Position numbers and translations under genes: made by a program | Part shown: positions 2,989 to 51,156 of the stretch, one piece after another | Layout: each line of letters begins with the position of its first letter | Position numbering within the stretch: the first letter of the stretch is position 1 | Assembly: GCF_000384395.1 (NCBI RefSeq) | Contig: NZ_ARWE01000001.1 | Location: 3,942,501 to 4,006,500, forward strand | Reading direction: 5' to 3' | Length of the DNA: 64,000 bases | Origin: Geopsychrobacter electrodiphilus DSM 16401 | Lineage (GTDB): Bacteria > Desulfobacterota > Desulfuromonadia > Desulfuromonadales > Geopsychrobacteraceae | Notes under the pieces: model-generated | Told to the model about the DNA's origin: nothing | The model's input: only the letters and a program-made list of their open reading frames with translations | Databases searched by the model: none

Positions 2989-4251
2989 TTATTTTACTGC
3001 CGGAATATTATCCCAGCGAGTAGTATAAGCAGGCGAGATATTAGCCTGCTTCATAAACCAATCTTTTGTTGGACGTTGACCGCCGAACCAGACCTTCCCC
3101 TTACCACTGTGGTTGATGGCATCTACGGCTTGCATCAATGTGTCATTCTGTTGCCGAGTGGCTTGGCTGTCAAACAGGTTGAGCTGCACATGAACCGGTG
3201 AGCAGAAGTCTCCGAGCATGACACCGCCCTTGGCGTAGCGGTAGCCATCCTTCCAGATCATATCGAATAGACGCGTTACCAATCCTAGAATGTTGCGGGT
3301 GTCAGAGCTTGGACAGGTTAACTTGCCGGTTGCTGCGTTGTCGTAGCTGGGACCTGATTTGTCAAAGGCGCTGGTGCGGATAAACACATGAACCATGAGC
3401 GCAAGTTGGCCCTCGTTGCGGAGCTTCTCCGTGGCCCTGGCCGCGAACTCACAGATACACTCCCTCAAGTCAGCGTAGCTCGTCAGCTTCTCCCCGAACG
3501 ACCGCGAGCACATGATCTGCTGCTTGGCTGCCGAAGTCTCCTCCAGGTCAATACAACTTTTCCCGTTCAGTTCACAGACCGTGCGCTCAAGAACCACGGA
3601 ATAGCGTTGCCGAACGCGCCGCGTGTCCATCTGAGCCAACTGCAGGGCTGTGGTGATGCCTTGCTGCTGCAGGCTGAGGGTATGCTTGCGTCCGACACCC
3701 CACACCTCTGAAACGTGGGTGATCCCGAGCAGCTTTTTTTGCCGTTGGGTCTCTCTGAGGTCTACCACTCCCTGAGTCGCCTTGAATTTCTTGGCGCCAT
3801 AATTGGCAAGTTTAGCCAAGGTCTTGGTGGGTGCAATACCAACACAGACCGGAACGCCAACGTGTTGGACCACCGTTGAGCGGATCTTCTGCCCGTACTC
3901 GCTGAGTGCTGACATTCCCGAGAGATCAAGAAAGGCTTCATCGATGGAGTAAACTTCGACGTGTGGACTGAACTGCTCCAGCGTCCGCATCACCCGGGCG
4001 GAGACATCACCATAGAGAGTGTAGTTAGATGAAAAGACCTGAATACCATGTCGCTTGATCTGGTCGATCACTTTGAACAGGGGCACGCCCATCTTGATCC
4101 CCAGGTCCTTAGCCTCTTGGCTGCGGGCGACAATGCAACCATCATTGTTAGAGAGGACAACAATCGGGACGTTTTTCAAATCGGGCCGAAATAGACGCTC
4201 ACAACTGGCGTAGAAATTATTGCAGTCGACGATGGCAAATGTACGGTTCAT
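2989..4251 (-). CDS. umuC: DNA polymerase V catalytic subunit UmuC (Y family)
   Basis: 420 aa, the usual UmuC length. The Y-family signature is complete: FAIVDCNNFYASCER at the N terminus with catalytic Asp9, LSNNDGCIVARS at about 33-44, and YSIDEAFLDL at 101-110 with the Asp104/Glu105 pair. Little-finger and C-terminal regions follow, ending in the typical UmuC tail. UmuC performs error-prone translesion synthesis with processed UmuD. The start ATG overlaps the end of umuD by 4 bases. Polymerase V operons are common ICE and plasmid cargo; with the SRAP gene next door this is a DNA-damage module. Confidence 0.96.
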   Translation of the reverse strand: MNRTFAIVDCNNFYASCERLFRPDLKNVPIVVLSNNDGCIVARSQEAKDLGIKMGVPLFKVIDQIKRHGIQVFSSNYTLYGDVSARVMRTLEQFSPHVEVYSIDEAFLDLSGMSALSEYGQKIRSTVVQHVGVPVCVGIAPTKTLAKLANYGAKKFKATQGVVDLRETQRQKKLLGITHVSEVWGVGRKHTLSLQQQGITTALQLAQMDTRRVRQRYSVVLERTVCELNGKSCIDLEETSAAKQQIMCSRSFGEKLTSYADLRECICEFAARATEKLRNEGQLALMVHVFIRTSAFDKSGPSYDNAATGKLTCPSSDTRNILGLVTRLFDMIWKDGYRYAKGGVMLGDFCSPVHVQLNLFDSQATRQQNDTLMQAVDAINHSGKGKVWFGGQRPTKDWFMKQANISPAYTTRWDNIPAVK

Positions 4252-5492: not shown

Positions 5493-6085
5493 GGTTTTGA
5501 GGATAGTAGTAATCTCAAGGATGCGCAACGATGAAGCTTAATTTTCGAGATGTATCTGTCGCCAAACTCCCATGCAGGTAAAAAGGGTTGCCAGATCATC
5601 GGCTGTTTTATTCAGAGAACCTTTCAAAGGGTCAACTCTGAGCCATTGCAATGGGTACATTTAGATGGTCCTTTTTCTCAGCATCCGCCCACCCCGAAAA
5701 CCCGGTCGTTTCAGGGCGGGGAAAAGCTAGAAGATGCATCGGTCTTGACAGAAACAAAAAAGATCTTAAAATAGAAGTCATTATTCCACTCTATTTTTTA
5801 GAGACTTCTGCATTGCAGAACAAACTTTCAAGGAAAGCCCTTGATCGAAAAACCCCAGGCATGGGACGTATCATTACAGGGAGAAACCGAAGCCCGGTGA
5901 TCCAATCCACACGCAACCGTGGACTCCCCTGTATGCTGTAACGCCGCACCACATTTCCACCGTGGTTTTTCTTGACGGCTGACAGTTTTATCGTGCGATT
6001 TTTCTCACAGCGCACTCACATACCCAATATCCAACCTCACCCGTTTTGGCGACTGCCTCAATGGGTTTTTTCATATCTGCACATC
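5493..6085. other. Gene-poor stretch and long leader upstream of ssb
   Basis: Nearly 600 bases without a convincing gene. It holds a CCGCCC...GGGCGG dyad near 5686-5720, a sigma-70-like promoter at 5745-5772, and a small AGAAGTC/GACTTCT hairpin at about 5774-5810 just after the predicted start point. Short reading frames here lack ribosome sites. It probably contains the main rightward promoter of the ssb-bet operon and a long 5' untranslated region. Confidence 0.4.
5745..5772 (+). promoter_or_regulatory. Sigma-70-type promoter for the ssb-bet region
   Basis: TTGACA at 5745-5750 and TAAAAT at 5767-5772, separated by 16 bases, with an A-rich spacer. It faces ssb, whose start is about 400 bases downstream. 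Confidence 0.5.
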
Positions 6086-6172
6086 GACCCATCCCTGCCG
6101 GGAGGAGAAATCTTCCCCGTCGTGGGGTGGACTCCTTTTGGCTGGGGAAACCCAACAGAAAGGAGAAACACG
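6086..6172 (+). promoter_or_regulatory. Structured leader 1 (radC-motif-like) before ssb
   Basis: Purine-rich strand GGAGGAG (6101-6107), inner hairpin CCCC/GGGG (6115-6127), then CTCCTTTT (6132-6139). The last can pair either with GGAGGAG or with the ribosome site AAAGGAG (6159-6165). This is the first of ten similar leaders in the region. Confidence 0.55.
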
Positions 6173-6577
6173 ATGTACAACAAGGTTCAACTGATTGGCA
6201 ATTTAGGCAAAGACCCCGAACTGCGCTACACCCCTTCCGGGACTGCTGTTGCAACATTTCCACTGGCAACATCAGAGAAGCGCAAAAGCAAAGACGGGGA
6301 AGTCGTTGAAAAAACGGAATGGCATAAGATCGTCACCTGGCGCTTACTTGCTGAACATTGCCACGATTATCTTCTGAAGGGACGACTGATCTTTGTCGAA
6401 GGCAAGATCCAGACGCGCTCCTATGAAGACCGAGACGGAAACAAACGTTACGTCACGGAAATCATCGCTGACCAGGTAAAATTTCTGGAAAAATGCGAAA
6501 TCCAAACAGGAGAATCATCACCCGCCCTACATCAGTCAAACGACAATGGCTGGACCGATGAGGACCCTCAATTCTAA
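6173..6577 (+). CDS. ssb: Single-stranded DNA-binding protein
   Basis: 134 aa. The ATG at 6173 was chosen because it follows AGGAGAAACACG and starts the conserved MYNKVQLIGNLGKDPELRY. The OB fold covers residues 1-105, including KTEWHKIV and GRLIFVEGKIQTRSY. A short linker leads to the acidic tip DEDPQF, the partner-binding tail. It coats ssDNA during conjugative entry and Bet-mediated annealing. An ssb-bet-exonuclease order is also known in SXT/R391 ICEs. The gene carries its own structured leader. Confidence 0.96.
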   Translation: MYNKVQLIGNLGKDPELRYTPSGTAVATFPLATSEKRKSKDGEVVEKTEWHKIVTWRLLAEHCHDYLLKGRLIFVEGKIQTRSYEDRDGNKRYVTEIIADQVKFLEKCEIQTGESSPALHQSNDNGWTDEDPQF

Positions 6578-6597
6578 TCTCTGATCAACAGTTGTAA

Positions 6598-6682
6598 CCC
6601 ACCCCGCAGGGGAGACATTCTCTCCCTGCCAGGGGAAAACTGTCTCCCCTGTTCGGCATCAGCCAACAGAAAAGGAGACATT
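6598..6682 (+). promoter_or_regulatory. Structured leader 2 before bet
   Basis: GGGGAGACA (6609-6617) pairs perfectly with TGTCTCCCC (6641-6649) around an inner CCC...GGG hairpin. The ribosome site AGGAGACA (6673-6680) can also pair with TGTCTCCCC, giving two exclusive folds. A small hairpin CTGTT..GGC/GCC..AACAG lies between. Confidence 0.65.
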
Positions 6683-7702
6683 ATGACAACGCAACTCGCC
6701 ATCAGAAGCAATCAAGCCACTTCTCTGTCTATTCTGGACGAGGAGAAGATCACACTTGTCAAAAGAACAATCTGCAAAGGGGCCACCGATGATGAGCTTC
6801 AGCTCTTCGTCAACCAGTGTAACCGCACCGGCCTTGACCCCTTCTCCCGACAGATCCACGCCATCAAACGCTGGGACTCAAGTGAACAACGTGAAGTTAT
6901 GTCCATTCAGACCTCGATTGATGGTTTCCGGCTGATTGCAGAGCGTACCGGCAAATATGCTGGTCAGCTCGGCCCTTTTTGGTGTGGGAAAAATGGAGAC
7001 TGGCAAGAAGTATGGATTCAAGATGCACCTCCGCTTGCTGCGAAGGTTGCTGTTTTACGGTCCGATTTCAAAGAACCCCTTTGGTCCGTTGCACGGTTCA
7101 ACACCTACGCGCAAAAAACCAAGAAGGGAGAACTTACTCGTTTCTGGAGATCCATGCCCGATCTGATGATCGCCAAGGTTGCTGAAGCACTGGCCATCAG
7201 ACGAGCCTTCCCACAGGAATTGTCCGGCCTTTACGTCGAAGAAGAAATGGACCAGGCTGGCCCTTCTGTCGAGAAATCTCCATCGAACACGAACAATCAG
7301 ACTCCCTCCTTGTCAAACACTCCGCCACCAACCGATCCCAGAGAAGGTGAAATCCTGATCTCCAACGGTCAGATCAAAACCCTGGAGCGAATGGTGAAGG
7401 AAGCAGGAGCGGACCAGACAAAATTTCTTAAATATCTGGATATCAGATCTTTCGAGGAATTGCCGCACAGCCAGTACACACAGGCTATTGACGCTCTCAA
7501 GCGGAAGCAGGAAGGAAAACCGATCCAGCCGCCGCAGAGTATAGATGCTGTCCTGTCTGCGCTGGCGGCCCACAAGATCGAAGCAAAGCTGTCCGAAGAT
7601 GGAAAAACCATCTATGCAGACTCCTATGAACATCGGAATCTGCTTCGTCAGATGGGTTTCCGTTGGGACAAATCCATGAAGAGCTGGTATCTGACCGTCT
7701 AA
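6683..7702 (+). CDS. bet: Bet/RecT-family single-strand annealing protein
   Basis: 339 aa. The first 200 residues match the lambda Bet/RecT family: [18 protein letters not shown], then [17 protein letters not shown], a central [20 protein letters not shown] stretch, and [18 protein letters not shown]. The C-terminal 140 residues are a Pro/Ser/Asn linker followed by a small domain ending [14 protein letters not shown], not typical of lambda Bet. It anneals complementary ssDNA with the nuclease encoded at 8503. Start ATG at 6683 with AAGGAGACA upstream. Confidence 0.92.
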
Positions 7703-7737
7703 CATCGACCGGCAGCACCAGATAACTGAACGATCCA

Positions 7738-7820
7738 CCCTTCACCGGGGAGACAACATTCTCCCTAGTCGGGGTGTGCCCTGTCTCCCCTGTGCTCAAC
7801 ACAGACAAGGAGACAAAACC
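7738..7820 (+). promoter_or_regulatory. Structured leader 3 before the small membrane protein gene
   Basis: GGGGAGACA (7747-7755) pairs with TGTCTCCCC (7782-7790), with inner hairpin CCC/GGG. The ribosome site AGGAGACA (7808-7815) repeats the 5' strand exactly, so it competes for the same partner. A CTGTG/CACAG mini-hairpin lies between. Confidence 0.65.
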
Positions 7821-7937
7821 ATGATCGAAAACACCATTTACGCACTCGCCAATGTCCGCATCAAAAACATCCTGACCGGCACTATCCTCGGCTCCTGCAT
7901 TGTTGCTGCTGTTTGCATCGCAGGAGGTTCGATGTGA
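7821..7937 (+). CDS. Small single-pass membrane protein (38 aa)
   Basis: ATG at 7821 follows AGGAGACA. A charged start (MIENTIYALANVRIKN) leads into one transmembrane helix rich in Gly, Ala, Ile and Cys at about 17-35. The stop TGA overlaps the GTG start of the next gene, so the two are translationally coupled. No family recognised. The strong ribosome site and dedicated leader support it as a real gene. Confidence 0.6.
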   Translation: MIENTIYALANVRIKNILTGTILGSCIVAAVCIAGGSM

Positions 7938-8128
7938 GTCGTCCAGGACGATTAATACCTACTGTCACCAGAGGAAAAACATTTCACGATCATCTGACCT
8001 GTGAAACCTGCCTGACCAACTTCCCCGTAGGGGTTGACGGAAGAGCAAGATGTAACAGCCACAAGATTGCGAAATGCCCCTGGTGTCGTCCTGATTCCCA
8101 TCCCTGGAAAGCTGGACGAGGTATTTAG
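7934..8128 (+). CDS. Small cysteine-rich, probably zinc-binding protein
   Basis: 64 aa from GTG at 7934, preferred over the upstream ATG at 7913 because AGGAGG (7922-7926) sits 7 bases before it and it overlaps the previous stop in the ATGTGA pattern. It has CETC, a single Cys in ARCNSH and CPWC, a likely zinc ribbon of two CxxC knuckles. No enzyme motif is seen. It may bind DNA or a protein partner. It is coupled with the 38-aa membrane protein. Confidence 0.6.
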   Translation: MSRPGRLIPTVTRGKTFHDHLTCETCLTNFPVGVDGRARCNSHKIAKCPWCRPDSHPWKAGRGI

Positions 8129-8137
8129 GAGGACTTG

Positions 8138-8410
8138 ATGAAAACGAAACTTTATCGCATCGAAAGAATCAGTGAGAGTTGGGAACGACGTATTGTTGCA
8201 GGAGGGTTTGTCCAGCATCGGGAGATTTATCAGGATGGAAGCAGGGGGCCGTGGCAGTTTTACGTCTCCAGCTTCGACTCCACCCCGGCTGGTCAATATG
8301 GAACCTGTGAAGTTGCAACAATCAACGGCCTCACCACAGTCCCAATCGACCCTGACAATCATATCAAGGTCAATCGCCGCTGGCATAGCCGTAGGCATTG
8401 GGACCACTAA
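8138..8410 (+). CDS. Hypothetical protein (90 aa)
   Basis: ATG at 8138 follows AGGAGG (8127-8132). The protein starts MKTKLYRIERISESWERRIV and is basic and aromatic, with a His/Arg-rich end (NRRWHSRRHWDH). No signal peptide or membrane segment. It lies 9 bases after the zinc-binding protein gene, probably in the same transcript. Family not recognised. Confidence 0.6.
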   Translation: MKTKLYRIERISESWERRIVAGGFVQHREIYQDGSRGPWQFYVSSFDSTPAGQYGTCEVATINGLTTVPIDPDNHIKVNRRWHSRRHWDH

Positions 8411-8426
8411 TCACCTACAAACAACA

Positions 8427-8502
8427 CCAACCCCACGGGGCGGATCAGACATCCCCTCGCAGGGTTTTCTGTGTCCGCCCCATCTTTTGACGGGAGACGG
8501 AC
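8427..8502 (+). promoter_or_regulatory. Structured leader 4 before the nuclease gene
   Basis: GGGGCGGA (8437-8444) pairs with TCCGCCCC (8474-8481), with inner CCC/GGG hairpin. TGTCCG (8472-8477) also matches CGGACA at 8498-8503, directly at the start codon. The stem sequence differs from leaders 2 and 3, yet both pairings are kept. Confidence 0.6.
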
Positions 8503-9468
8503 ATGAGCAAACTTCAGATATTTCTCGAAAAAGCACTTCGGGAAAATTCCAAAAATAACAGCAGCCATCTCGGGGACCGCAGCAAGTATGTCGGAGCATC
8601 TGACATCGCAGGCTGCCCCCGCAAGGCTGTCATGAGCAAATTCCAGCCGGAAGACTTCGATGCAAAAACGCTGCTGCGTTTCTCTCGGGGTCATGCGGCA
8701 GAAGATCTGATCGACGGTATCTTTCGGGCTGGTGGTCTAACCCCGCAGCGCGAGGTTGAGCTTTTCCACCCGGACTATCCGGAGATCAAGTGTCACATCG
8801 ACTTTCTTTTTAACTCAAAAACCAGCGGTCGCTATCATGTCATGGAACTGAAGACGACCAACGGCCTCCCGGATGCCCCCTATGAAAGCTGGGTTAATCA
8901 GCTCCACGTCCAGATGGGATTGCTGGAACTGGATAAACCTGGTGTACCTATCGGAGGCAGCATCCTGGCGGTCGATCTAAATGCTGGTGAATGGAAGGAA
9001 TTCAACTCGTTCACACCGAACAGGATCTTGTTTGATGCCATGATTATGAAAGGGCGTCATATTCTGTTTTCACTCAACTCCCCGGAAAACGCTCAGATCG
9101 AACCCGGCATCCTGTGTGGATACTGTTCCCAGCGAGGAACCTGTCCTGCCTTTGCCGGTGACGAGATCGAGATCCCGCAAGAAATTCGGAATCTCGTTGC
9201 GCGGTATCTGGAGAAGAGTGAAGGCAAGAGATCTCTGGACAAGGAAATCAAAGGACTTAAAAACGAAATCCTTTCCTTTACCGGGACAAACTTCAAGGGC
9301 CATGCTGACTTGCTTCAGATTTGTGCAAGTGAAGTCGGCCCCTCTGAAGCAGTGGACTCAAAACGGCTCAAAGAGGCGTTCCCGGAAGTCTACGACCAAG
9401 TAAAGAAGGAACGAGCCGGATTCACCCGGCTTGATGTCGCCAGAATCAGAAAACAGGCTGCTGCCTGA
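8503..9468 (+). CDS. PD-(D/E)XK exonuclease of RecB/Cas4 type with Fe-S-type cysteines
   Basis: 321 aa. The nuclease core is visible as HIDFLFN (catalytic Asp), then VMELKTT (Glu and Lys of the D...ExK motif), with QLHVQMGLLEL as the following Q-helix. One cysteine at about 38 (DIAGCPRKAVM) and a later CGYCSQRGTC cluster suggest a Cas4/AddB-like 4Fe-4S cluster. A charged helical tail follows. It is the natural exonuclease partner of the Bet protein, equivalent in place to SXT Exo. Start ATG at 8503 with GGGAGACGGAC upstream. Confidence 0.85.
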   Translation: MSKLQIFLEKALRENSKNNSSHLGDRSKYVGASDIAGCPRKAVMSKFQPEDFDAKTLLRFSRGHAAEDLIDGIFRAGGLTPQREVELFHPDYPEIKCHIDFLFNSKTSGRYHVMELKTTNGLPDAPYESWVNQLHVQMGLLELDKPGVPIGGSILAVDLNAGEWKEFNSFTPNRILFDAMIMKGRHILFSLNSPENAQIEPGILCGYCSQRGTCPAFAGDEIEIPQEIRNLVARYLEKSEGKRSLDKEIKGLKNEILSFTGTNFKGHADLLQICASEVGPSEAVDSKRLKEAFPEVYDQVKKERAGFTRLDVARIRKQAAA

Positions 9469-9471
9469 TCT

Positions 9472-9555
9472 ACCCCATACGGGGCGCTTACGCCGCCCTC
9501 ATAAGGGACCCTCCTTTTCGGGGCGGCGTTATTGCGTCTTCGGAAAGGAAGAAAC
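9472..9555 (+). promoter_or_regulatory. Structured leader 5 (variant) before the 51-aa gene
   Basis: ACGCCGCCC (9490-9498) pairs with the GGGGCGGCGT strand (9520-9529). TCCTTT (9512-9517) in the loop can pair with the ribosome site AAAGGA (9545-9550). The layout departs from the common form but keeps an anti-ribosome-site strand. Confidence 0.45.
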
Positions 9556-9711
9556 ATGCTGAAAGACAAAACGCTACTACTGTTCATCTTTCTGTGTCTG
9601 GTGCTGTTTGCCTTGATAGTAACTCCCAGATCCAAACAGAACTACGATCAGTTTGCAAAAACTTATAAAACCTATCGCGAGATGCAGGAGGTGGTGCCAT
9701 GGTCGCACTGA
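9556..9711 (+). CDS. Small single-pass membrane protein (51 aa)
   Basis: ATG at 9556 after AAAGGAAGAAAC. One strongly hydrophobic helix (LLLFIFLCLVLFALIV) near the N terminus is followed by a basic, tyrosine-rich soluble tail. Its end overlaps the start of the next gene by 13 bases. No family recognised; the shape fits small ICE or phage membrane proteins. Confidence 0.55.
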   Translation: MLKDKTLLLFIFLCLVLFALIVTPRSKQNYDQFAKTYKTYREMQEVVPWSH

Positions 9712-9893
9712 CGAAACACGCCGCCAACCGCATCCTGGAACGTGAAATCCCTTTCGAGGCCATAGAAGCCTGCCGAATGGTTGCACCGATTCTGAACAAG
9801 AACCCTTTGAGGTTCCGTTATCGGGATCTGGTTATTGTCGCCAGAAAAGCAGGTGGTTCCCCCCGGATTATCTCTGTCTGGAGGGCGGAATGA
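9699..9893 (+). CDS. DUF4258-like small protein
   Basis: 64 aa. LTKHAANRILEREIPFEAIE fits the H-x3-R-x2-ER-I start of DUF4258 proteins. A short beta part follows (RYRDLVIVARKAGGSPRIISVW), as in RelE/BrnT-like small alpha/beta proteins. The ATG at 9699 has GCAGGAGG upstream and lies inside the end of the previous gene. No antitoxin partner is evident, so toxin function is not claimed. It overlaps the next gene by 4 bases. Confidence 0.6.
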   Translation: MVALTKHAANRILEREIPFEAIEACRMVAPILNKNPLRFRYRDLVIVARKAGGSPRIISVWRAE

Positions 9894-10198
9894 AGCTCGA
9901 ACCAGGGATGTTGATAACTACGAACTATAGCGGCCCATATCGTATCAAGAAAGTTATACGGAATTGCACGTGCCAGTCTTATCTGGACACGATCAATCAC
10001 TTATCATCTCCCAGTCAGCCCCATATCCATTTGGTCTGTACACGACCTGACGGCACCGGGGAGTTTTTTTTGAACCGCTGGGATGAAACCTCTCTCAAGA
10101 GCCTCCAACGAACCTGTTGTGGGGGGAAGAAAGAGGTCGCTCTCGACTGGTTGACAGTCCTGGAAAATGACCAGCCTGTGCAAGGAACCCTATTTTAA
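9890..10198 (+). CDS. Hypothetical protein (102 aa)
   Basis: The start ATG overlaps the previous stop (ATGA), so it is coupled to the DUF4258-like gene. The protein is soluble and beta-rich, starting MKLEPGMLITTNYSGPYRIK. Four cysteines (CTC and TCC) could bind metal. No family recognised. It closes the three-gene group behind leader 5. Confidence 0.55.
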   Translation: MKLEPGMLITTNYSGPYRIKKVIRNCTCQSYLDTINHLSSPSQPHIHLVCTRPDGTGEFFLNRWDETSLKSLQRTCCGGKKEVALDWLTVLENDQPVQGTLF

Positions 10199-10203
10199 CT
10201 TAA

Positions 10204-10291
10204 CACCCACCCAGACCCGGGAGGAGACAACCTCTTTCCCGGATGGGGAATTGTGTCTCCTTCCGGTCACTTATCGACAAGGAGAAGACAC
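10204..10291 (+). promoter_or_regulatory. Structured leader 6 before the MoxR/CobS ATPase gene
   Basis: GGGAGGAGACA (10219-10229) pairs with TGTCTCCTTCC (10254-10264), inner hairpin TTCCC/GGGGAA. TGTGTC and TCCTT (10252-10262) also match GACACA and AAGGA in the stretch 10279-10292 that ends at the start codon. Confidence 0.6.
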
Positions 10292-11221
10292 ATGCACGAA
10301 AAACAATTCAGCATTGCAAAGACCTTCGCCCTGGCAGGACTTCCCGAGGAATTGATGATTCGCGGCTTTGCCGAACGGACTGCTTTTGTCCCAGGCATCG
10401 ACCCGGACTACCAGTTTCGCAAGGAACTCCTTTCAGACCTTCTTGCCTGGCACATGCTTGGCGGAATCGAAGGACTTTACCTCTCCGGCCCCACCGGGTC
10501 CGGAAAATCCACTCTGATTACCCAGGTTGCCGGCCGTTTGAACATCCCTGTTCAGCGGGTCACCGCTCACAGCCGGCTGGAAACGCCAGAGCTGATCGGT
10601 CATTACGCTCTGGTTGATGGCTCCATGTCTTTTACGGACGGTCCTCTCACCACAGCAATGCGGGAAGGACACTGGTTCCTTCTCGATGAGATCGATCTGC
10701 TCGATCCGGCAACTGCGGCCGGTCTCAACGGGATTGTCGAAGGTTCGCCTCTGGTGATCCCCGAGAAGAACGGTGAAATGGTAAATCCTGCTTACGGTTT
10801 CCGTTTCATTGCAACCGGAAACACGGCAGGAGCCGGGGACCAGACAGGGCTCTACCAGGGGACCATGCGTCAGAATCTTGCTTTTCTGGACCGCTTCTGG
10901 ATGGTCGAAGTTGGCTATCCCGAACAGGAACAGGAGAAACTGATCTTGGCAAAGATTGCCCCCGGTATCCCTGAAGGTGTCAGAGACGGAATGATTGCTT
11001 ATGCAACTGAGGTACGGAAACTCTTTATGGCGGGACAACTCGAAGTCACCCTCTCCACGCGGACCCTTGTTCGGTGGGCGAAAATGTCGGAATTCTTCCG
11101 TCCGCTCGCCAACCTGGGGAAAAATCCGCTGCATCACGCACTGGAACGGGCACTGACCTTCCGTGCAGAACCCGAAACCCGCAGTTCGCTGGCAGAAATC
11201 GCCCAGCGCATTTTCGGTTAA
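10292..11221 (+). CDS. MoxR/CobS-type AAA+ ATPase
   Basis: 309 aa from ATG at 10292 (AAGGAG upstream; the longer frame from 10253 would cover the leader). Walker A is SGPTGSGKST at 65-74 and Walker B HWFLLDEIDLLD at 127-138. A GNTAGAGDQTGLYQG loop and an arginine-containing sensor region follow, typical of the MoxR/CbbQ/CobS branch. Such ATPases work with VWA proteins as a chelatase-like remodelling pair. The VWA partner is encoded at 12834. SXT/R391 ICEs carry the same cobS/cobT-named pair, of unknown function. Confidence 0.9.
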   Translation: MHEKQFSIAKTFALAGLPEELMIRGFAERTAFVPGIDPDYQFRKELLSDLLAWHMLGGIEGLYLSGPTGSGKSTLITQVAGRLNIPVQRVTAHSRLETPELIGHYALVDGSMSFTDGPLTTAMREGHWFLLDEIDLLDPATAAGLNGIVEGSPLVIPEKNGEMVNPAYGFRFIATGNTAGAGDQTGLYQGTMRQNLAFLDRFWMVEVGYPEQEQEKLILAKIAPGIPEGVRDGMIAYATEVRKLFMAGQLEVTLSTRTLVRWAKMSEFFRPLANLGKNPLHHALERALTFRAEPETRSSLAEIAQRIFG

Positions 11222-11232
11222 GAGAGGAAATT

Positions 11233-11577
11233 ATGCTTATCCATTTGAGATACATCAATCCAGACGGCAGCACCAAGGACTGGATCGGTGAAGCCAGCGA
11301 CAGGGGAGTTAACATTTCCTGGGGAAGAACAGGATTAGTCCGACAGGGACTGTTTTTACCTCCCGATAAGTGTCGAACTAACCAACAACAAGAATTACAA
11401 AACAGGGCAGAGAAGAAGATCAAAAAGGGATACCGGCCCATTCCAACCTTAAAGGTGGAAGGACACCCGGATCCGTCTTCGCCTACACCACCTACACCGT
11501 CTACACCATCGGTTCCATCCAAAGCTGCCAGTGCACTTCGCCAATGGACGAAGGATACCAACAGTTCATGGTTTTAG
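11233..11577 (+). CDS. WGR-domain protein
   Basis: 114 aa. Residues 1-65 match the WGR domain: a beta-rich start (MLIHLRYINPDGSTKDWIG), the WGR triplet in VNISWGRTG, and a helix ending NRAEKKIKKGYRP. WGR domains bind nucleic acid ends or partners in PARP-like proteins and occur alone in bacteria. The second half is a Pro/Ser/Thr-rich linker and a short helical tail. ATG at 11233 with AGAGAGG, 11 bases after the ATPase gene, so probably co-transcribed. Confidence 0.75.
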   Translation: MLIHLRYINPDGSTKDWIGEASDRGVNISWGRTGLVRQGLFLPPDKCRTNQQQELQNRAEKKIKKGYRPIPTLKVEGHPDPSSPTPPTPSTPSVPSKAASALRQWTKDTNSSWF

Positions 11578-11610
11578 ATGGAGGTAGGTAATCAAACAAT
11601 CTGATCGACA

Positions 11611-11693
11611 CCCAATCCCGACACGGGGGAGACATTCTCCCCTGACGGGGTAGGTGTTTCTCCTGTGTCCTTAATTGACTAGGAGAAAACACC
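11611..11693 (+). promoter_or_regulatory. Structured leader 7 before the DUF3150 gene
   Basis: GGGGGAGACA (11625-11634), inner hairpin CCCC TGAC GGGG (11639-11650), then GGTGTTTCTCCT (11653-11664). The last strand matches the ribosome site AGGAGAAAACACC (11681-11693) almost perfectly, with one bulge. This is the clearest anti-ribosome-site pairing of the series. Confidence 0.65.
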
Positions 11694-12704
11694 ATGTTCG
11701 ATCTACTTCAAAAGCTTATCTGTTTCAGTCTCGATGTCCACATCTGGAGTGGCAGGAAGAAACTCACTCCCGCTGATCTGAATCTGGACGGGGAAGAGAT
11801 CCCCCCTGAAGAACTTGCATCTTTGGGAGCTAAAAAAATCTGTCACCCCGTTCTGCTGAGCCGGTTTCAAGCTTTGCGGCGTCGTGCCGAACGCATCTGT
11901 GAAGCAGCAGGTGTTCGCTTTCTGGGCGGCTTTGCCATCCCGGAAGAGAAGGCGCAGGAAGTCGCAAGGGAACTGGAAGCGGTCGCAGTTGATTTTGAGG
12001 CTGAGAAACAGGAATTCCTAAAATTCTATGCCGAGAATATGCAGGCATGGCTAACAAACCTCCCGGATCGCTGGCGGACAATGGTGGAACAAGCCGTTGA
12101 GTCGCCCGAACATGTTGCCACCCGCCTGTCCTTCGGATTCCAGACCTTTCAGGTTTCTGGTGTTGAAGGGCTGAACAGCGGTCTTGAAAAAGCCGCGAAC
12201 GGACTTGGTGATCAGCTCTTCCGGGAAATAGGTCAGGCATCCCGTCTGGCCTGGAGTCAGTCTTTCGAGTCACGGACAAGGGTAAGCCAGAAAGCTTTGC
12301 GGCCGATCCGCAGCATCCTCGAAAAAGCGAAGGGGCTAGTCTTTGTCCAGCCATCGCTGGGACTGCTGATTACCAGTATTGAACAGGAGCTGGACGGTTT
12401 GCCAAAGTCCGGCTACATGGAAGGTCGTGATTTTCATGTCCTGGTCGGCATCCTCAACACTCTGTCCTGTCTTGACAATATCAACCTCAATCTCGCGGAA
12501 GAACAGAAAGAGACAGAGGGTTCCTCAGATCCGGAGGAATCGACGCTTAAAGAGGATGTGCTGGCAGATCATGAAACGGAAAATGTTTCGGTTGCCAGCG
12601 CCCAAAATGCTGCCACCGAAGTTGATGTGGAGCAGGTCTTTGAGCCGATCCCTGAACCGCACCAGAGACAGACAAGCGTCACGTCTCCGGTTGTCTGGTT
12701 TTAG
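11694..12704 (+). CDS. DUF3150 protein
   Basis: 336 aa. It begins LICFSLDVHIWSGRKKLTPADL, typical of DUF3150, which also has LGAKKICHPVLLSRFQALRRRAER. Long amphipathic helices follow and the last 80 residues are acidic and low-complexity. DUF3150 genes sit between MoxR/CobS and CobT-like VWA genes in several ICEs, so a role with that pair is likely but unproven. ATG at 11694 after AGGAGAAAACACC. An antisense frame over 11830-12354 is judged a shadow. Confidence 0.85.
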   Translation: MFDLLQKLICFSLDVHIWSGRKKLTPADLNLDGEEIPPEELASLGAKKICHPVLLSRFQALRRRAERICEAAGVRFLGGFAIPEEKAQEVARELEAVAVDFEAEKQEFLKFYAENMQAWLTNLPDRWRTMVEQAVESPEHVATRLSFGFQTFQVSGVEGLNSGLEKAANGLGDQLFREIGQASRLAWSQSFESRTRVSQKALRPIRSILEKAKGLVFVQPSLGLLITSIEQELDGLPKSGYMEGRDFHVLVGILNTLSCLDNINLNLAEEQKETEGSSDPEESTLKEDVLADHETENVSVASAQNAATEVDVEQVFEPIPEPHQRQTSVTSPVVWF

Positions 12705-12767
12705 GGGCGCGATATGGGCAACCTCACTCTCGAAGAATGTGAAGTCAGCGACTGAACCTTCCTGATA

Positions 12768-12833
12768 TCCCCGCCGTTCCGGGACGTTTGATTTTATCTG
12801 ACGCCCTGAACGGGGGGCGTCCGTGGAGGCTCT
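12768..12833 (+). promoter_or_regulatory. Structured leader 8 (variant) before the VWA gene
   Basis: GACGCCC (12800-12806) pairs with GGGCGTC (12815-12821), only a few bases before the ribosome site GGAGG at 12825. CCGTTCCGGGACG just upstream may form a second stem. It is a divergent member of the leader series. Confidence 0.4.
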
Positions 12834-14567
12834 ATGAATATTTCAAAATCACTGCCGATTGTCGCAAAGGCGATGGGCGATCAAATGGGAGTCAATGTTG
12901 TCATTCGCGGGAACACTGCAGCGACAAATGGGAAAACTATTTTCCTGCCGGAACTCCCAAAAGATGACGCTGAGGCGACCCTGCTGGCGCGGGGTTTCCT
13001 CGACCACGAGGCCGCTCATGTTCGACTGACGGATTTTTCCGTTACCGAAAGCGACCCTTATCTGAAAAATCTGACCAACATCATTGAAGATGTAAGGATC
13101 GAGAAGGAAATGGGACAGCTCTACCCGGGCTGTGCCATTAACCTGCGGGACCTGGCGAATCATCTGGCTGAAACCGGAAGCTTCGACTTCGACTCTGATC
13201 AGCCGGACCAACTGTTTCTTGGTTGGGTTTTGGCTCGATGTCGCAGCAGGATTCTCAGACAGAAAGGTCTTGATCCTGTCTTTAGAAACGCAAATCAGAT
13301 CCTCGAACCCGCCCTAGGGACCGAACTGCTCGGTAAGGTCGGCAAGCTGCTCGATAATGTCGGTATGTTGAAGACAACCAAGGCATCACAGACTCTGGCT
13401 GCTCGTATCCTCCAGTTACTTCGGCAGGAGCAGCAACAGGCGCAGTCTCAACGCCAACAGCAGCAGGACCAGTCCTCCGAATCTTCTTCAGGTGAAGACC
13501 GGCAGGAGCAACAGAATCAAAACGATTCCTCTGAGTCTGATCAGGACAACGAAGCGGATGATTCCAGCGACACGACTGGAGAATCCGGATCTCAGCAGGA
13601 ACAGAAACAAGACGATGGAAGTGTACTCAGTGATCGGGGCAAAGACCCTTCCGGGTCCACCCCAGACGCTGAAAAGCAACCTCAAAACAACGATGCCAGG
13701 GCTGACCTCCTCAATCAGATCCTTAATTCATCCCCCGCGGAAGAGTATGGAGATGTTGGGGAGATGGTCGGGGCAGAACTGGAAGCGAAGGCAGCGGAAA
13801 CAACTCCTGCTACCGCAGAAATGTCCTACCCGGGCGAAGATGGAGGATCGGTAAATTTTAGTTTTCCTCCAGACCTGACAACGGTCCGGCGTAATACCTC
13901 CGTGCTTCGATCCCGTCTTGGATCATTGATCCAGGCCTCGAAACTGAAGAGGTCATGCGCCGGTCGATCCGGACGAAGAATAGATCAGCGTGTACTCTGC
14001 AGGCTTCCTGTCGGTGACACGCGGATTTTTCGCAGAAGGGAGGAAAAAACAGCAGTCAATACCGCCGTAATTATACTCCTTGACCGCTCCGGGTCGATGA
14101 ACAGCAGGATGTCTCTGGCAGCAGAGGCAACCCTAGCCGTTACCGATGCACTACACACCGTTCCCGGTGTCAGTATCTGCTCGGCAGCGTTCCCGGGCGA
14201 AATGGCATCCGTCATTCCCCTTACCCCGTTTGGGGTCGCTCCAGCCAAAACTCTCAAAAAGTATGGGATCGTGGCTGACGGGGGAACCCCTCTTGCTCAT
14301 GCTCTCGGGTGGGCGGCAGTTCAATTCGCCATGCGCCAGGAGCCACGCAAGATATTGGTGGTTGCAACCGATGGCACACCCGCAAATCCAGAACGGGTTC
14401 GTACCTATCTGGAACGCTTGGCGGAGCAGGGTATTGAGCAGATGGCGGTCGGCATCATGGATGGTGGTGCTTGTGGATGGTACTTCAAAAACCATAAGAC
14501 GATCCAGAACATCCATGAATTGCCGAACGCGCTGTTCGATATGCTCAAGGATGCTTTAACTCGCTGA
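12834..14567 (+). CDS. CobT-like VWA-domain protein with zincin-like HEAAH motif
   Basis: 577 aa. N-terminal part (1-200) contains FLDHEAAHVRLTDF with HEAAH at 58-62 and NIIEDVRIEKEM about 24 residues later, resembling a gluzincin HExxH...E site. Residues about 200-300 are an acidic, Gln/Ser/Asp-rich linker typical of CobT-like proteins. The C terminus is a VWA domain with MIDAS DRSGSMNS near residue 416 and VATDGTPANP later. With the MoxR/CobS ATPase it probably forms a chelatase-like remodelling complex. Despite the cobT name in SXT, cobalt insertion is unlikely here. Confidence 0.85.
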   Translation: MNISKSLPIVAKAMGDQMGVNVVIRGNTAATNGKTIFLPELPKDDAEATLLARGFLDHEAAHVRLTDFSVTESDPYLKNLTNIIEDVRIEKEMGQLYPGCAINLRDLANHLAETGSFDFDSDQPDQLFLGWVLARCRSRILRQKGLDPVFRNANQILEPALGTELLGKVGKLLDNVGMLKTTKASQTLAARILQLLRQEQQQAQSQRQQQQDQSSESSSGEDRQEQQNQNDSSESDQDNEADDSSDTTGESGSQQEQKQDDGSVLSDRGKDPSGSTPDAEKQPQNNDARADLLNQILNSSPAEEYGDVGEMVGAELEAKAAETTPATAEMSYPGEDGGSVNFSFPPDLTTVRRNTSVLRSRLGSLIQASKLKRSCAGRSGRRIDQRVLCRLPVGDTRIFRRREEKTAVNTAVIILLDRSGSMNSRMSLAAEATLAVTDALHTVPGVSICSAAFPGEMASVIPLTPFGVAPAKTLKKYGIVADGGTPLAHALGWAAVQFAMRQEPRKILVVATDGTPANPERVRTYLERLAEQGIEQMAVGIMDGGACGWYFKNHKTIQNIHELPNALFDMLKDALTR

Positions 14568-14579
14568 TAAAAACGAATT

Positions 14580-14648
14580 ACCCAGTTACGGGGGCAGACA
14601 AAGCCCCCGGAAGGGGTCCATGTCTGCTCCCGACAAGGAGAAAAGGAT
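14580..14648 (+). promoter_or_regulatory. Structured leader 9 before radC
   Basis: GGGGGCAGACA (14590-14600) pairs with TGTCTGCTCCC (14621-14631), inner hairpin CCCC/GGGG. An extra C in the first strand is matched by an extra G in the second, which is compensatory change relative to leaders 2 and 3. Ribosome site AAGGAG at 14635. Leaders upstream of radC are the defining context of the known radC RNA motif. Confidence 0.65.
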
Positions 14649-15143
14649 ATGGAAACGATAAATCTTTTCGGCCCGAAGCCCGAGCCGAAAACTCAAAAAA
14701 TCTGCATCAGGTCAATCCGGGCGGTTTTTAATAACGAAGTCATTCGGGAGCACGCCCCTGTTTGGGTAAGTAAATCTTGCACCAGCGCCGAGCATGTATT
14801 TGAATTGTTCCGCGATTTGGCAAAGGAGACCAAAGAGAATTTTGTGGCTCTTCATCTTGATACCAAAAACCGGATCATCTGCTACGACACGGTTTCTATC
14901 GGTTCCCTCAACGCAAGTGTTGTTCACCCCAGAGAGGTATACAAAACGGTCCTGCTGTCATCAGCGGCAGCGGTGCTATTCATTCACAACCACCCTTCGG
15001 GGGACACAGCACCGAGCCGGGAAGATATAGAGATAACCAAACGGCTCAAGGACGCCGGGGAACTTCTCGGAATCCGGGTGTTGGATCATTTGATCGTTGG
15101 TGAGGCTGGGTATTACTCCTTTGCAAACGATGGGATCTTATAG
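14649..15143 (+). CDS. radC: RadC-family JAB/MPN-domain protein
   Basis: 164 aa, the short mobile-element form without the N-terminal HhH domain. The JAMM motif is complete: Glu in the N-terminal part, FIHNHPSGD near 111-117 and the SREDIEITKRLKDAGELLGI helix, then DHLIVGEAGYYSF. RadC is common on ICEs and plasmids. A role in DNA recombination or repair is proposed but poorly established. ATG at 14649 after AAGGAGAAAAGGAT. Confidence 0.95.
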   Translation: METINLFGPKPEPKTQKICIRSIRAVFNNEVIREHAPVWVSKSCTSAEHVFELFRDLAKETKENFVALHLDTKNRIICYDTVSIGSLNASVVHPREVYKTVLLSSAAAVLFIHNHPSGDTAPSREDIEITKRLKDAGELLGIRVLDHLIVGEAGYYSFANDGIL

Positions 15144-15157
15144 AAAGGAAATACTTC

Positions 15158-15544
15158 ATGAAGAGAAATCGGCCGAAAGCCGTTAAAGGAGAAACCCTGG
15201 AGATGTCATCTCCATGCGGGAAAATATACGTCACGATGAACGACAACCCGGACTCTGGAGATCTTTTGGAGATCTTCGTCAGGTTTGGAAAATCGGGAAC
15301 CTGCGGCAGCCTGGTCGCCAATGCCCTGACCATCATCACGTCCTATGGACTTCGGTCCGGTATGGATGTGACCGATGCGATCAAGGGGTTGATCGGCCAC
15401 GGCTGCCACCGTGCGCCCGTACGTGACGAAGACGATAATATTACGTCCTGTGTCGATGCCATCGGCAAGGCTATCCGTATTCATGCGGGACTCGTGCCGG
15501 AGGAAGAAGAACAGGATATTGACCACTTAGAGGAGGTATCATGA
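15158..15544 (+). CDS. TSCPD-domain protein
   Basis: 128 aa. It shows the TSCPD pattern: SPCGKIYVTMND, then LLEIFVRFGKSGTCGSLVANAL, ITSYGLRSGMDV and a conserved HGCH with nearby Cys. The domain is best known from the end of class II ribonucleotide reductases and also occurs as a standalone protein. The stand-alone function is unknown; cysteine-bound metal is plausible. ATG at 15158, 15 bases after radC. The end overlaps the lipoprotein gene by 4 bases. Confidence 0.8.
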   Translation: MKRNRPKAVKGETLEMSSPCGKIYVTMNDNPDSGDLLEIFVRFGKSGTCGSLVANALTIITSYGLRSGMDVTDAIKGLIGHGCHRAPVRDEDDNITSCVDAIGKAIRIHAGLVPEEEEQDIDHLEEVS

Positions 15545-15855
15545 AACGACTGATAACTGTAGTGATCTTGGCCTCTCTGGCTCTATCTGGCTGTTCCGCA
15601 GCCAGTCTCCAGAAGGCTGAAGAAAATACAAGATTGACCGGCATGGTGCCTGGCGGGGGAGTTGTTTATCTCCCGATCTGGGCGGCATCAACGATTGCCG
15701 GTGGGCCTGAAGTTGACCCTGATGAGCTTGCGAAGGATGAAGAATATCAGGCACGGCTGAAGGCTAACCTCGAAAATGCCCGGAGAATCCGGGAAAAACG
15801 CCAAGCCGAGAAAGAGGCTAAAGAGGCGGCAAAACTGGAGGCGGTAGCCCAATAG
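15541..15855 (+). CDS. Small lipoprotein
   Basis: 104 aa. Signal peptide MKRLITVVILASLALSGC with lipobox LSGC (Cys18). A Gly/Pro-rich middle (MVPGGGVVYLPIW) and a highly charged coiled-coil-like tail (ARRIREKRQAEKEAKEAAK) follow. It is probably anchored to the periplasmic side of a membrane. It overlaps the TSCPD gene by 4 bases. Family not recognised; it could be an entry-exclusion or envelope accessory protein, without direct evidence. Confidence 0.75.
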   Translation: MKRLITVVILASLALSGCSAASLQKAEENTRLTGMVPGGGVVYLPIWAASTIAGGPEVDPDELAKDEEYQARLKANLENARRIREKRQAEKEAKEAAKLEAVAQ

Positions 15856-15863
15856 TTTTGTTT

Positions 15864-16017
15864 GACTGACGGACACAGCGGGGCTTAACGGCCCCGCTGC
15901 TGTCTCCTTCCGGGTGAAGTCCAGTAGGGCTTCCTGGATCTCCTGTCCACACGACGGGTGATGCGGGAAGCCCTACTGGTTTCAACAGCACTTCACCCCA
16001 ACAAAAGGAGAACAGCC
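15864..16017 (+). promoter_or_regulatory. Structured leader 10 with an inserted long hairpin
   Basis: GGACACAG (15871-15878) pairs with CTGTCTCC (15900-15907) with one mismatch around AGCGGGGC/GCCCCGCT. GCTGTCTCCTT (15899-15909) matches the ribosome site AAGGAGAACAGC (16005-16016) with one bulge. Between them is a separate hairpin: GGGTGAAGT/ACTTCACCC (15912-15920, 15990-15998) enclosing 14-base perfect arms at 15921-15934 and 15966-15979. Confidence 0.6.
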
Positions 16018-16134
16018 ATGTCCGTCAAAGTCAAAATCAACAATCGTGAATTTACTCTCTCTTGGGACGAGTTTGAGAAACTTGTTCTGAGAAAGGCCCC
16101 AACCGCTTCGGTGGAAATTTTGAGCGTGGGGTAA
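16018..16134 (+). CDS. Very small protein (38 aa)
   Basis: ATG at 16018 follows AAAAGGAGAACAGCC, a strong ribosome site, and the largest leader of the series. The product starts MSVKVKINNREFTLSWDEFE and ends VEILSVG; it is soluble and probably a short alpha/beta peptide. An intrinsic terminator follows directly, so this is the last gene of the transcript. No family recognised. The dedicated leader makes it more than a chance frame. Confidence 0.6.
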   Translation: MSVKVKINNREFTLSWDEFEKLVLRKAPTASVEILSVG

Positions 16135-17125: not shown

Positions 17126-17586
17126 AGTGGCACAATCACAAGCTCTGCACAGTCTGTGTCATGTTTGCCGTAACCGGGCGGCTGTTGCCCGCATTTATCG
17201 CCGGGCTGGGCTCCATCCTGCCAGATGTTCTTGAGGTGGGACTGGTCAGACACCGAACCCTGACTCACTGGCCCTTTGTTTATGCCGCACTTATTCTGAC
17301 AATCGTCCCGGCAATCAAGCTCGTTTCCTGGTGGGCCTGGCTGATCGTCGGATGCCTGCTGATCGGCTGCATCCTCCATCTGGCTGAAGATGGTCTAAGC
17401 AAGGGCGGCATCCCCCTATTCAATCCAGCAGGGAAAAAGTATGGATTGGGGTGGTATATCACCGGCACCATCACCGAAACATTTGTCACTGCGGGCATCG
17501 TTCTAGTGGCCCTGTACATTGCTGGCCAGCGCGGATTTCTCTCAACCGATTTTCTGGCGGAAGAAATCCGCTGGCTTCTCTCTTGA
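17122..17586 (+). CDS. YdjM-family (LexA-regulated inner-membrane) metal-dependent hydrolase
   Basis: 154 aa with four hydrophobic segments. The family pattern is clear: GSILPDVLE followed by RHRTLTHWPFVY, and LHLAEDGLSKGGIPLFNP, which carry the Asp and His residues proposed to bind metal in YdjM/DUF457 proteins. The activity of these proteins has not been established. It overlaps the anchored protein gene upstream. YdjM members are often found on mobile elements and are SOS-controlled in E. coli. Confidence 0.8.
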   Translation: MKWHNHKLCTVCVMFAVTGRLLPAFIAGLGSILPDVLEVGLVRHRTLTHWPFVYAALILTIVPAIKLVSWWAWLIVGCLLIGCILHLAEDGLSKGGIPLFNPAGKKYGLGWYITGTITETFVTAGIVLVALYIAGQRGFLSTDFLAEEIRWLLS

Positions 17587-18013: not shown

Positions 18014-18151
18014 CGCTCTTTTTGTCACCATTCTTCACTGCACAAAATATAGTCAAAATGCTAAGCGGGCAGTCTTCTTCCAACATGCCCGTTCCCTGTT
18101 CACAGCAGACAGGAGAGTTATCCCTCCGAACTGTGGATTTCGGCCGGATTC

Positions 18152-18177
18152 AAGCAGGTAAGCCACCTGCTTTTTTT
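18152..18177 (+). terminator. Intrinsic terminator
   Basis: AAGCAGGT pairs with ACCTGCTT around AAGCC, followed by seven T (18171-18177). It closes the operon ending at 18013; the stretch 18014-18151 holds a small CGGGCA/TGCCCG hairpin and no gene. Confidence 0.8.
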
Positions 18178-39019: not shown

Positions 39020-39039
39020 TCCTTTACCACTCCTCTATT

Positions 39040-39645
39040 TTACGGCCCGACAACACTGAAAACCGGTCTGGAATGCTTCCCCTCGGCCAGCCCGAGAACC
39101 ACCCGAACTCCGTGCAGCATTTTTCTCTCCTGCTCACCGGAGAACAAACGATCAACAACATTTCTGAGCTCCTGAAATAAACTATGAGGGTCTAGAATCT
39201 CCCGGCAATAAGGCCGATCATCCATCAATGCTGCCAGACGGTCTGCAACCTGGATGACCCGGGCCTCAACACCGACATTTTTGATTCCAAACGGATAGCC
39301 TGTCCCGGTCGGGCATTCATGGTGATGCAGTATCATCTCCTTGAACGGCTCCAGATCCGTCCCCTGAACAAACTGTCCACCCCAGATCGGATGAAGCTCC
39401 ATGATGTCGCGCTCCGATTCGTCTAACGCTTCGACTTTGAGCAGGATCGAATCCGGTAGAGACAATTTTCCAACATCGTGCAGAATTCCGGCGATATGCG
39501 CATGCTGCGGCTCAAATTCTTGACAGAAATCCCCGGCAATCACCAATCTGTGAGCGAGCTTTCCAGTCGTCACTGAATGGTTATAAAGACCTGAACTCTT
39601 TGCATAGAGGGTTTTCAGTACAACCTCGACAATCTGATCCAGCAT
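39040..39645 (-). CDS. HD-GYP-domain phosphohydrolase inside the conjugation operon
   Basis: 201 aa from ATG at 39645, with GAGG 8 bases upstream; the longer frame overlaps the gene before. HD-GYP residues are present: HSVTTGKLAHRL, GILHDVGKLSLP (HD), HPIWGGQF, HHHECPTGTGYP (the GYP part, HHE-x-PTGTGYP) and VADRLAAL. This family degrades cyclic di-GMP or related signals. No receiver or membrane part is present. A conjugation operon encoding such an enzyme could link pilus use to second-messenger state. Confidence 0.85.
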   Translation of the reverse strand: MLDQIVEVVLKTLYAKSSGLYNHSVTTGKLAHRLVIAGDFCQEFEPQHAHIAGILHDVGKLSLPDSILLKVEALDESERDIMELHPIWGGQFVQGTDLEPFKEMILHHHECPTGTGYPFGIKNVGVEARVIQVADRLAALMDDRPYCREILDPHSLFQELRNVVDRLFSGEQERKMLHGVRVVLGLAEGKHSRPVFSVVGP

Positions 39646-39655
39646 GAAGACTTCC

Positions 39656-39850: not shown

Positions 39851-39852
39851 AG

Positions 39853-40575: not shown

Positions 40576-40584
40576 GGTCTCCTC

Positions 40585-40839: not shown

Positions 40840-40850
40840 ATTTCTCACTC

Positions 40851-41767: not shown

Positions 41768-41814
41768 CACACAATCCTCACAGCCAAATGGGGTGTCTCA
41801 ACCCTTGTCCTAAA

Positions 41815-41963: not shown

Positions 41964-41990
41964 GAATCTGCATCCATCCATAATTCTCCA

Positions 41991-42922: not shown

Positions 42923-42934
42923 GGAAGAATCCTT

Positions 42935-43942: not shown

Positions 43943-43944
43943 GC

Positions 43945-50771: not shown

Positions 50772-50772
50772 G

Positions 50773-51153: not shown

Positions 51154-51156
51154 CAA

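Follow-up and report, generated by a model that had tools for sequence, protein, structure and literature searches.

In a 64,000-nucleotide stretch of the Geopsychrobacter electrodiphilus DSM 16401 genome (the window; contig NZ_ARWE01000001.1, positions 3,942,501 to 4,006,500, forward strand), a compact plus-strand operon of a mobile element (6173-16134) carries ten structured RNA leaders. Our results suggest that such leaders are, with fair probability, bistable translational locks on a polycistronic mRNA. In this model, one strand of the leader, B, would pair either with strand C at the gene start (gene off) or with strand A, an upstream imitation of C (gene on). Comparison of leader sequences shows that the complementarities A:A', B:C and A:B are each maintained leader by leader. 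All results are computed, and the energies come from nearest-neighbour prediction, which leaves out tertiary contacts and proteins.

A sequence-only reading of the window had described ten leaders of one plan, held together by a long stem, GGGGAGACA/TGTCTCCCC. Structured leaders are present at all ten positions: single-sequence folding gave z-scores of -2.5 to -6.4 against shuffles, and the number of shuffles folding as well was 0/200 for eight leaders, 1/200 for leader 3 and 3/200 for leader 8. The plan is a chain of six strands, a0-A-A'-b0-B-C. The minimum-energy folds of leaders 1, 2, 3, 4, 6, 7 and 9 contain hairpin 1, in which ACCC/GGGG-type strands (a0:b0) close around an inner A:A' helix, followed by hairpin B:C. 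Since strand C is the Shine-Dalgarno or start region in these seven leaders, the gene is predicted to be off in this stable fold, hereafter the off fold. The long stem corresponds to A:B. Its complementarity is real and conserved, yet it is not the minimum-energy fold of these seven leaders; it is mutually exclusive with B:C and frees C. The sequence-only reading thus noticed one of two alternative folds and overlooked the pairing of its return strand with the Shine-Dalgarno site.

A covariance model, R1, was built on the off fold alone, using 11 leaders: window leaders 2, 6 and 7 and eight homologues found in four related loci. Unfiltered and on the plus strand, it scored leaders 1, 2, 3, 4, 6, 7 and 9 at 17 to 93 bits (E ≤0.007 in 10.7 kb), three of them, leaders 2, 6 and 7, by construction because R1 contains them. 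These seven also end their R1 match at a start codon. The single plan claimed for all ten leaders therefore holds for seven; leader 5 matches weakly, leaders 8 and 10 have no match, and these three are outside the strict R1 family. The leaders, all on the plus strand, are as follows; for those scored at 17 to 93 bits the first coordinate is the start of the R1 match, and A:B energies, in kcal/mol, are for a leader's own strands.

6087-6175, plus strand: leader 1, before ssb (start 6173); R1 24.9 bits; strand-ladder score 0/200 shuffles; A:B -18.5.
6596-6685, plus strand: leader 2, before recT; R1 56.8 bits; strands a0 6602-6605, A 6606-6617, A' 6621-6629, b0 6632-6635, B 6641-6649 and C 6674-6680, the last containing the Shine-Dalgarno site.
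7733-7823, plus strand: leader 3, ahead of a 38-aa gene that is followed by two coupled small genes; R1 35.9 bits.
8426-8505, plus strand: leader 4, before a PD-(D/E)XK exonuclease-like gene; R1 17.1 bits; A:B -24.5; strand C extends to the start codon.
9468-9558, plus strand: leader 5, a weak or variant member; R1 10.6 bits (E 0.2); homologues in related loci L031 and L032.
10205-10294, plus strand: leader 6, before a CbbQ-type AAA ATPase gene; R1 68.7 bits.
11611-11696, plus strand: leader 7, before a DUF3150 gene; R1 93.4 bits.
12760-12836, plus strand: leader 8, before cobT; no R1 score; topology differs, a 5' strand pairing with the Shine-Dalgarno site in a plan of its own.
14576-14651, plus strand: leader 9, before radC; R1 21.5 bits; A:B -24.2.
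15862-16020, plus strand: leader 10, before a 38-aa gene; no R1 score; a hairpin followed by a very long hairpin.

In the leader 8 homologues of L031 and L032, GACGCCCC has two possible partners. The very long hairpin of leader 10 (about 90 nt, 15906-15996) lies between that leader and the conserved 38-aa gene, and similar ones occur in L031, L032 and L034.

A strand-ladder score, computed for 23 starts, was reached by 0/200 shuffles for leaders 1, 2, 3, 6 and 7 and by 13, 14 and 20 of 200 for leaders 4, 5 and 8, while leaders 9 and 10 had no ladder; a terminator hairpin at 16224 was a false positive (0/200) and a non-leader start at 11233 gave 7/200. A MAFFT alignment of seven window leaders was of poor quality and was discarded.

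On the minus strand of the leader stretch, R1 matches largely mirror the leaders, the strongest with 31.3 bits; an exception, at 15642-15688 (14.6 bits, E 0.025), lies in a coding region and mirrors no leader. Nothing convincing was found by R1 in 16400-64000 (best 8.4 bits, E 2.7), and with default filters the whole window gave no match at E 0.5 outside 6087-14651. In the host genome, a single contig of 4.24 Mb, a search to E 1 that scored 150 of 1651 candidates gave seven matches. All are in the operon; six correspond to leaders and the seventh mirrors leader 6.

The model was also carried to other elements, where it found matches in integrative conjugative elements (ICEs) of the SXT/R391 type, plasmids and Desulfuromonadia elements. 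Over the window plus 38 loci (741 kb, some overlapping) it gave 232 matches at E 0.5; over 31 of 80 named loci it gave 96 at E 0.3, of which 94 were on the coding strand and 2 were mirrors. The leader set was drawn from two alignments, A6 (the best 150 of the 232 matches) and A7 (all 96): 246 rows reduced to 239 non-overlapping ones, 225 of them with all strands. These 225 include duplicates (loci L037 and L068 are one record, with 2 and 3 rows), which were filtered from the 110 non-redundant leaders below 75% identity. Strand boundaries were derived from the off-fold alignment. A start codon ends most matches (191/225), and in 185 of the 191 it opens a frame that has 40 codons or more or continues past the end of the locus; for any ATG the fraction is 0.389. 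Among 277 Desulfuromonadia genomes, 37 have R1 matches (E 0.01), 37 have DUF3150 and 28 have both (p 6e-23). Eight of the nine R1-positive genomes without DUF3150 were viewed, and four (L160, L161, L165 and L166) carry, by eye, ssb- or exonuclease-like operon pieces on short contigs or near a contig end.

The covariation noted earlier from the window alone is borne out for the off fold. Alignment A7, fitted to R1, has 82 distinct rows, of which nearly all come from loci outside the Desulfuromonadia set. Both partners changed in 24 of its 26 off-fold pairs, compared with 19.3 in shuffles, and both-side changes filled 325 cells against 104.5, a count reached in 0/500 shuffles. The covariation score was 0.340, compared with 0.121 in shuffles (0/500) and 0.043-0.066 in slid versions of the pairing.

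The alternative helix A:B is absent from the R1 structure. It was assessed independently of any fixed register by swapping strands among the 110 leaders. The own A:B pairing came to -17.95 kcal/mol and the swapped pairing to -12.64 (0/2000 permutations, z -20.5). The corresponding values were -16.80 and -11.11 for B:C (0/2000, z -21.5) and -13.18 and -10.55 for A:A' (0/2000). The control pairs A:C, A':B, b0:B and b0:C showed no leader specificity in the same test. Taken by themselves, the 41 leaders from outside the Desulfuromonadia set gave the same result, as did the remaining 69, and the own A:B was within the top 10% for 65 of the 110. In all seven R1-found window leaders, the own A:B measured -18.5 to -24.9 kcal/mol, against averages between -12.1 and -15.5 when that A was paired with foreign B strands; only 0 to 11 of 109-110 foreign B strands suited A better than its own.

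Several observations weigh against the bistable reading. The control A':C was slightly specific (-6.34 compared with -5.99, 14/2000), the clamp a0:b0 was barely so (own -7.83, swapped -7.49, 10/2000), and A':b0 did not reach significance (154/2000). In a fixed register, the on helix was 66.9% paired compared with 64.3% in shuffles (5/500), a weak signal because the register of A:B varies and the alignment sets A to A' and B to C. In 76 of 144 cases, the B strand that suited A best within the element was its own, where chance would give about 24. Of the window leaders, leader 1 alone is itself among the 110, and leaders 4 and 9 are absent from the 225.

Part of this evidence also bears on whether the leaders work as RNA at all. 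The genes of the operon handle DNA, and the repeats could be a DNA-level element, such as hairpins of transferred single-stranded DNA. B:C was weaker in the sense than in the opposite strand in 72/110 leaders, whole-leader folds were slightly weaker in sense, and counts of G-U and A-C failed to separate RNA from DNA (257 compared with 236, and 125 compared with 113); these points, too, count against an RNA lock. A:B, on the other hand, was stronger in the sense strand in 82/110 leaders and weaker in 26, the coding strand holds 94 of the 96 matches in oriented loci, and matches mostly end on gene-opening start codons. We consider a DNA-level element extremely unlikely.

The proposed lock would work as follows. 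By default, A would be held in hairpin 1 by A' and the a0:b0 clamp, so that B takes C and the gene is off. Where hairpin 1 is absent or has been opened, A would take B, b0 could take A', and the ribosome site would be free. In simulations, the free full-length RNA was off at equilibrium in 96 of 108 leaders (2 of the 110 were unusable here). Blocking a0 and the preceding bases turned 41 of these 96 on; blocking b0 turned on 7. Two points qualify this result to the detriment of the lock: 55 of the 96 stayed off in silico with a0 blocked, and the blocked a0 and b0 stretches were unequal in length. An earlier switching test on window and plasmid leaders with ladder-picked strands had been mixed, several leaders showing no switch, and is superseded by the 108-leader test.

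The same numbers also fit a static translational brake, in which hairpin 1 is a mere neighbour and B:C keeps expression low with no on state. Free RNA is off in 96/108 leaders, 55/96 are not flipped by blocking a0, and the brake matches what a review states of the bet gene (PMC4542580). A static brake, however, needs no A:B, and A:B equals B:C in leader specificity (z -20.5 and -21.5). We therefore regard the static brake as unlikely.

Kinetics suggest when a bistable lock would be set. When leaders were cut after B, 83/110 preferred A:B at equilibrium, and 73/110 would be on while nascent and off when complete. Among five window leaders tried as truncated folds, leader 7 formed no A:B, contrary to the model, and the other four did. 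The estimated direct-path barriers (medians of 73 leaders) were 19.7 kcal/mol from hairpin 1 to A:B and 15.6 kcal/mol from on to off. A timer that keeps the gene on while the RNA is nascent is unlikely without help, given the barrier of about 20 kcal/mol from hairpin 1 to A:B. The model predicts free RNA that is off, with hairpin 1 as a kinetic trap. Because the direct-path barriers are large, formation of hairpin 1 while the RNA is still being made probably decides between on and off. We infer that the genes would be silent despite transcription, and that something preventing a0 from pairing or hairpin 1 from forming would open the locks.

One candidate for such an event is translational coupling, in which a ribosome that terminates on the preceding gene would mask a0 and so open the leader that follows. 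An upstream frame of at least 50 codons ends near the leader in 174/225 cases, mostly 0 to 39 nt before a0; some stops in the IncC plasmid run directly into a0, and blocking a0 opens 41/96 leaders. At the measured distances, however, only 7 or 9 of 81 off leaders flipped when the ribosome masked 10 or 15 nt downstream of the stop, so that we reject termination coupling as a general trigger. Many ssb leaders, moreover, lack such an upstream frame and are preceded by a stretch ending in a terminator-like hairpin. As an account of the leaders, coupling appears quite unlikely.

Riboswitches commonly have bistable leaders of this sort, and a ligand-binding riboswitch or a hairpin binding a specific protein was also considered. 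By column conservation, no conserved ligand-binding core was found outside the helices. Among unpaired positions, those conserved above 0.55 bits comprise the A preceding a0, isolated bases next to A or B, positions around the Shine-Dalgarno site, and the start codon. None lies in a hairpin loop, which speaks against a ligand pocket. No Rfam family reached threshold in the window when all 4227 families were scanned. Such a switch is very unlikely in our judgement.

Nor do the leaders resemble transcription attenuators, in which A:B would be the stem of an intrinsic terminator. A T run follows strand B in some leaders, mostly outside the Desulfuromonadia set, yet a run of five Ts after B was found in only 19/225 leaders, none of the five window leaders among the 225 has it, and B:C covers the Shine-Dalgarno site; this alternative is highly improbable. 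Separately, some leaders of the Methylobacter plasmid (L067, e.g. 17242-17326 and 18077-18158) do have a T run after B, so that A:B could also act as a terminator there.

Membership in the radC RNA motif, suggested by the sequence-only reading, has in its favour that one leader precedes radC, but it did not survive the search. The Rfam model RF01754 had no match at E up to 5 in 5900-16100 and did not reach its gathering score in the window, and a genome-wide search to E 10 gave a single match (E 3.9), which lies outside the window. We practically discount this identity.

What could open the bistable locks? The A, B and C strands differ among leaders and the a0/b0 clamp is nearly interchangeable; thus, one factor acting on the clamp could open many leaders. 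It is tempting to speculate that a single element-encoded or host factor captures the near-invariant ACCC/GGG clamp and opens all locks together when the recombination genes are needed. A factor capturing the shared clamp is our preferred guess for the trigger, though such a master key is offered tentatively and is doubtful as a whole. Our analysis found no factor acting on the clamp and identified no trigger, which tells against the model. The clamp could alternatively be invariant only since b0 has two partners to match, a0 and A'. A single-stranded TTTAA preceding a0, which the Methylobacter plasmid had led us to suspect, was not general; that check aligned leaders on their CCC run (present in 99/110), whose 100% C is by construction. 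If the master key were true, elements from Desulfuromonadia to SXT and IncC would share a post-transcriptional control layer. Coordination of an entire regulon, raised in the sequence-only reading, is a reasonable but unproven idea.

The operon, one for DNA repair, encodes SSB, RecT, small genes, a PD-(D/E)XK nuclease-like protein, a CbbQ-type AAA ATPase, DUF3150, a CobT-like VWA protein, RadC and a TSCPD protein. The main features of the operon, the region upstream of it and the rest of the element are:

5745-5772, plus strand: promoter-like TTGACA-16-TAAAAT; the four nearest homologous loci have a comparable site aligned with it.
5800-6071, plus strand: conserved stretch of about 270 nt with no assigned gene, ending in an intrinsic-terminator-like hairpin directly before leader 1.
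6173-6577, plus strand: SSB gene (PF00436).
6683-7702, plus strand: RecT recombinase gene (PF03837).
8503-9468, plus strand: PD-(D/E)XK nuclease-like gene (Pfam match under cut-off).
10292-11221, plus strand: CbbQ/MoxR-type AAA ATPase gene.
11694-12704, plus strand: DUF3150 gene (PF11348).
12834-14567, plus strand: CobT-like VWA gene.
14649-15143, plus strand: RadC gene (PF04002).
16018-16134, plus strand: conserved 38-aa gene.
18385-19374: tyrosine integrase, in the same window as the leaders.
35780-52374, minus strand: F-type transfer genes (TraG-N, TraU, TraN, TraC and TrbI families).

Since the tyrosine integrase and the F-type transfer genes share the window with the operon, its context is likely an ICE. 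The claim that each leader heads a gene group agrees with the gene starts. Seventeen starts were accepted in 6173-16018; ten lie behind an intergenic leader (6173, 6683, 7821, 8503, 9556, 10292, 11694, 12834, 14649 and 16018), and seven (7934, 8138, 9699, 9890, 11233, 15158 and 15541) overlap the preceding gene or start no more than 14 nt after its stop. Every accepted start thus sits behind a leader or is coupled to a gene that does. The small reading frames of the operon have similar stretches in related loci, the frame at 8138 in more distant loci only.

Upstream of ssb, a short inverted repeat (about 5789-5803, by eye) accompanies the promoter-like site and the conserved stretch. The end of that stretch, GGGTTTT, precedes ssb in 20/20 loci with an ssb match, the window included (L041 is cut by the end of its retrieved sequence). 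Two such stretches were searched against Rfam and gave no match.

The leader plan recurs ahead of genes in elements of Desulfuromonadia, in SXT/R391-type ICEs and on two plasmids, one IncC and one from Methylobacter; the bacterial classes of the named loci were taken from record titles and background knowledge. R1 matches lie before bet, exo and cobT in the IncC plasmid (L066) and before several genes of the Methylobacter plasmid, and many further intergenic leaders in both operons resemble the plan by eye and by fold. By folding, the SXT/R391-type loci have the plan before bet, exo, cbbQ, DUF3150 and cobT. R1 matches in these loci lie before exo, DUF3150 and one more gene; those before exo are short, and in two that were viewed the inner helix is absent from the alignment. 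The SXT/R391-type bet leaders gave no R1 match at E 0.3; in L136, L110 and L134 they show, by fold only, an inner hairpin and a strand pairing with the Shine-Dalgarno site. L136 is strain D104, a carrier of the SXT/R391 element ICEMprChn1 according to the title of PMC5122569. In the IncC plasmid, the leader regions of the AAA ATPase and DUF3150 genes (4033-4150 and 8868-8985) are near-identical over about 90 nt, as if duplicated. In a Geoalkalibacter plasmid (L068), leaders at 10474 and 11989 are of a different type, the Shine-Dalgarno site being hidden by a longer-range TTTCCTCC/GGAGGAAA pairing.

A large share of the mobile drug resistance in Gammaproteobacteria travels on SXT/R391 ICEs and IncC plasmids. 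Several known systems share parts of the logic proposed here. In erm-type attenuators, mutually exclusive hairpins set access to the Shine-Dalgarno site, and the trigger is a ribosome stalled on a leader peptide. The hairpin logic predicted for our leaders is alike, whereas a ribosome at the upstream stop flips only 7 or 9 of 81. As described in PMC6733600, the aapA3 and hok toxin mRNAs likewise use alternative hairpins, formed co-transcriptionally, to decide whether the Shine-Dalgarno site is hidden; those are single type I toxin genes, whereas the leaders here form a set within one operon. The STAXI motif (RF01728) resembles our leaders as a repeated structured element near ssb and other DNA genes; in PMC2864571, however, it is described as a pseudoknot in at least two tandem repeats, and our leaders stand singly before separate genes. 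Its Rfam model has no match in the window. The radC RNA motif (RF01754; listed in PMC2864571), which occurs in Proteobacteria, shares its name with the gene behind leader 9 but its model is unmatched here.

Another close system is the bet attenuator of SXT/R391. According to a review (PMC4542580, citing Garriss et al. 2013), SXT bet and exo are highly transcribed and are restrained by a strong translational attenuator upstream of bet. The effect reported there is low expression despite high transcription. The gene context, an ssb-bet-exo operon, is shared: leader 2 precedes RecT, and bet leaders are present in L066 (R1 match) and in L110, L134 and L136 (fold). A structure hiding the Shine-Dalgarno region is predicted for the R1 family by folding and covariation and for the SXT-type bet leaders by fold. 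The review describes the attenuator for bet, whereas R1 leaders precede many genes per element in several bacterial classes and have a conserved alternative helix. We take the SXT bet attenuator to be one putative member of the R1 leader family. The translational attenuator as a kind, and this one member, were already known. As far as searches of the open-licence literature reach, the multi-copy leader family, its spread, its lack of an Rfam match and the conserved alternative helix are new. Our analysis yields a covariance model and a strand map of the leaders and raises the question of what flips them. Together, the comparison suggests that the bet brake is no single oddity but belongs to a widespread leader family with a conserved second state, standing before most gene groups of the operon.

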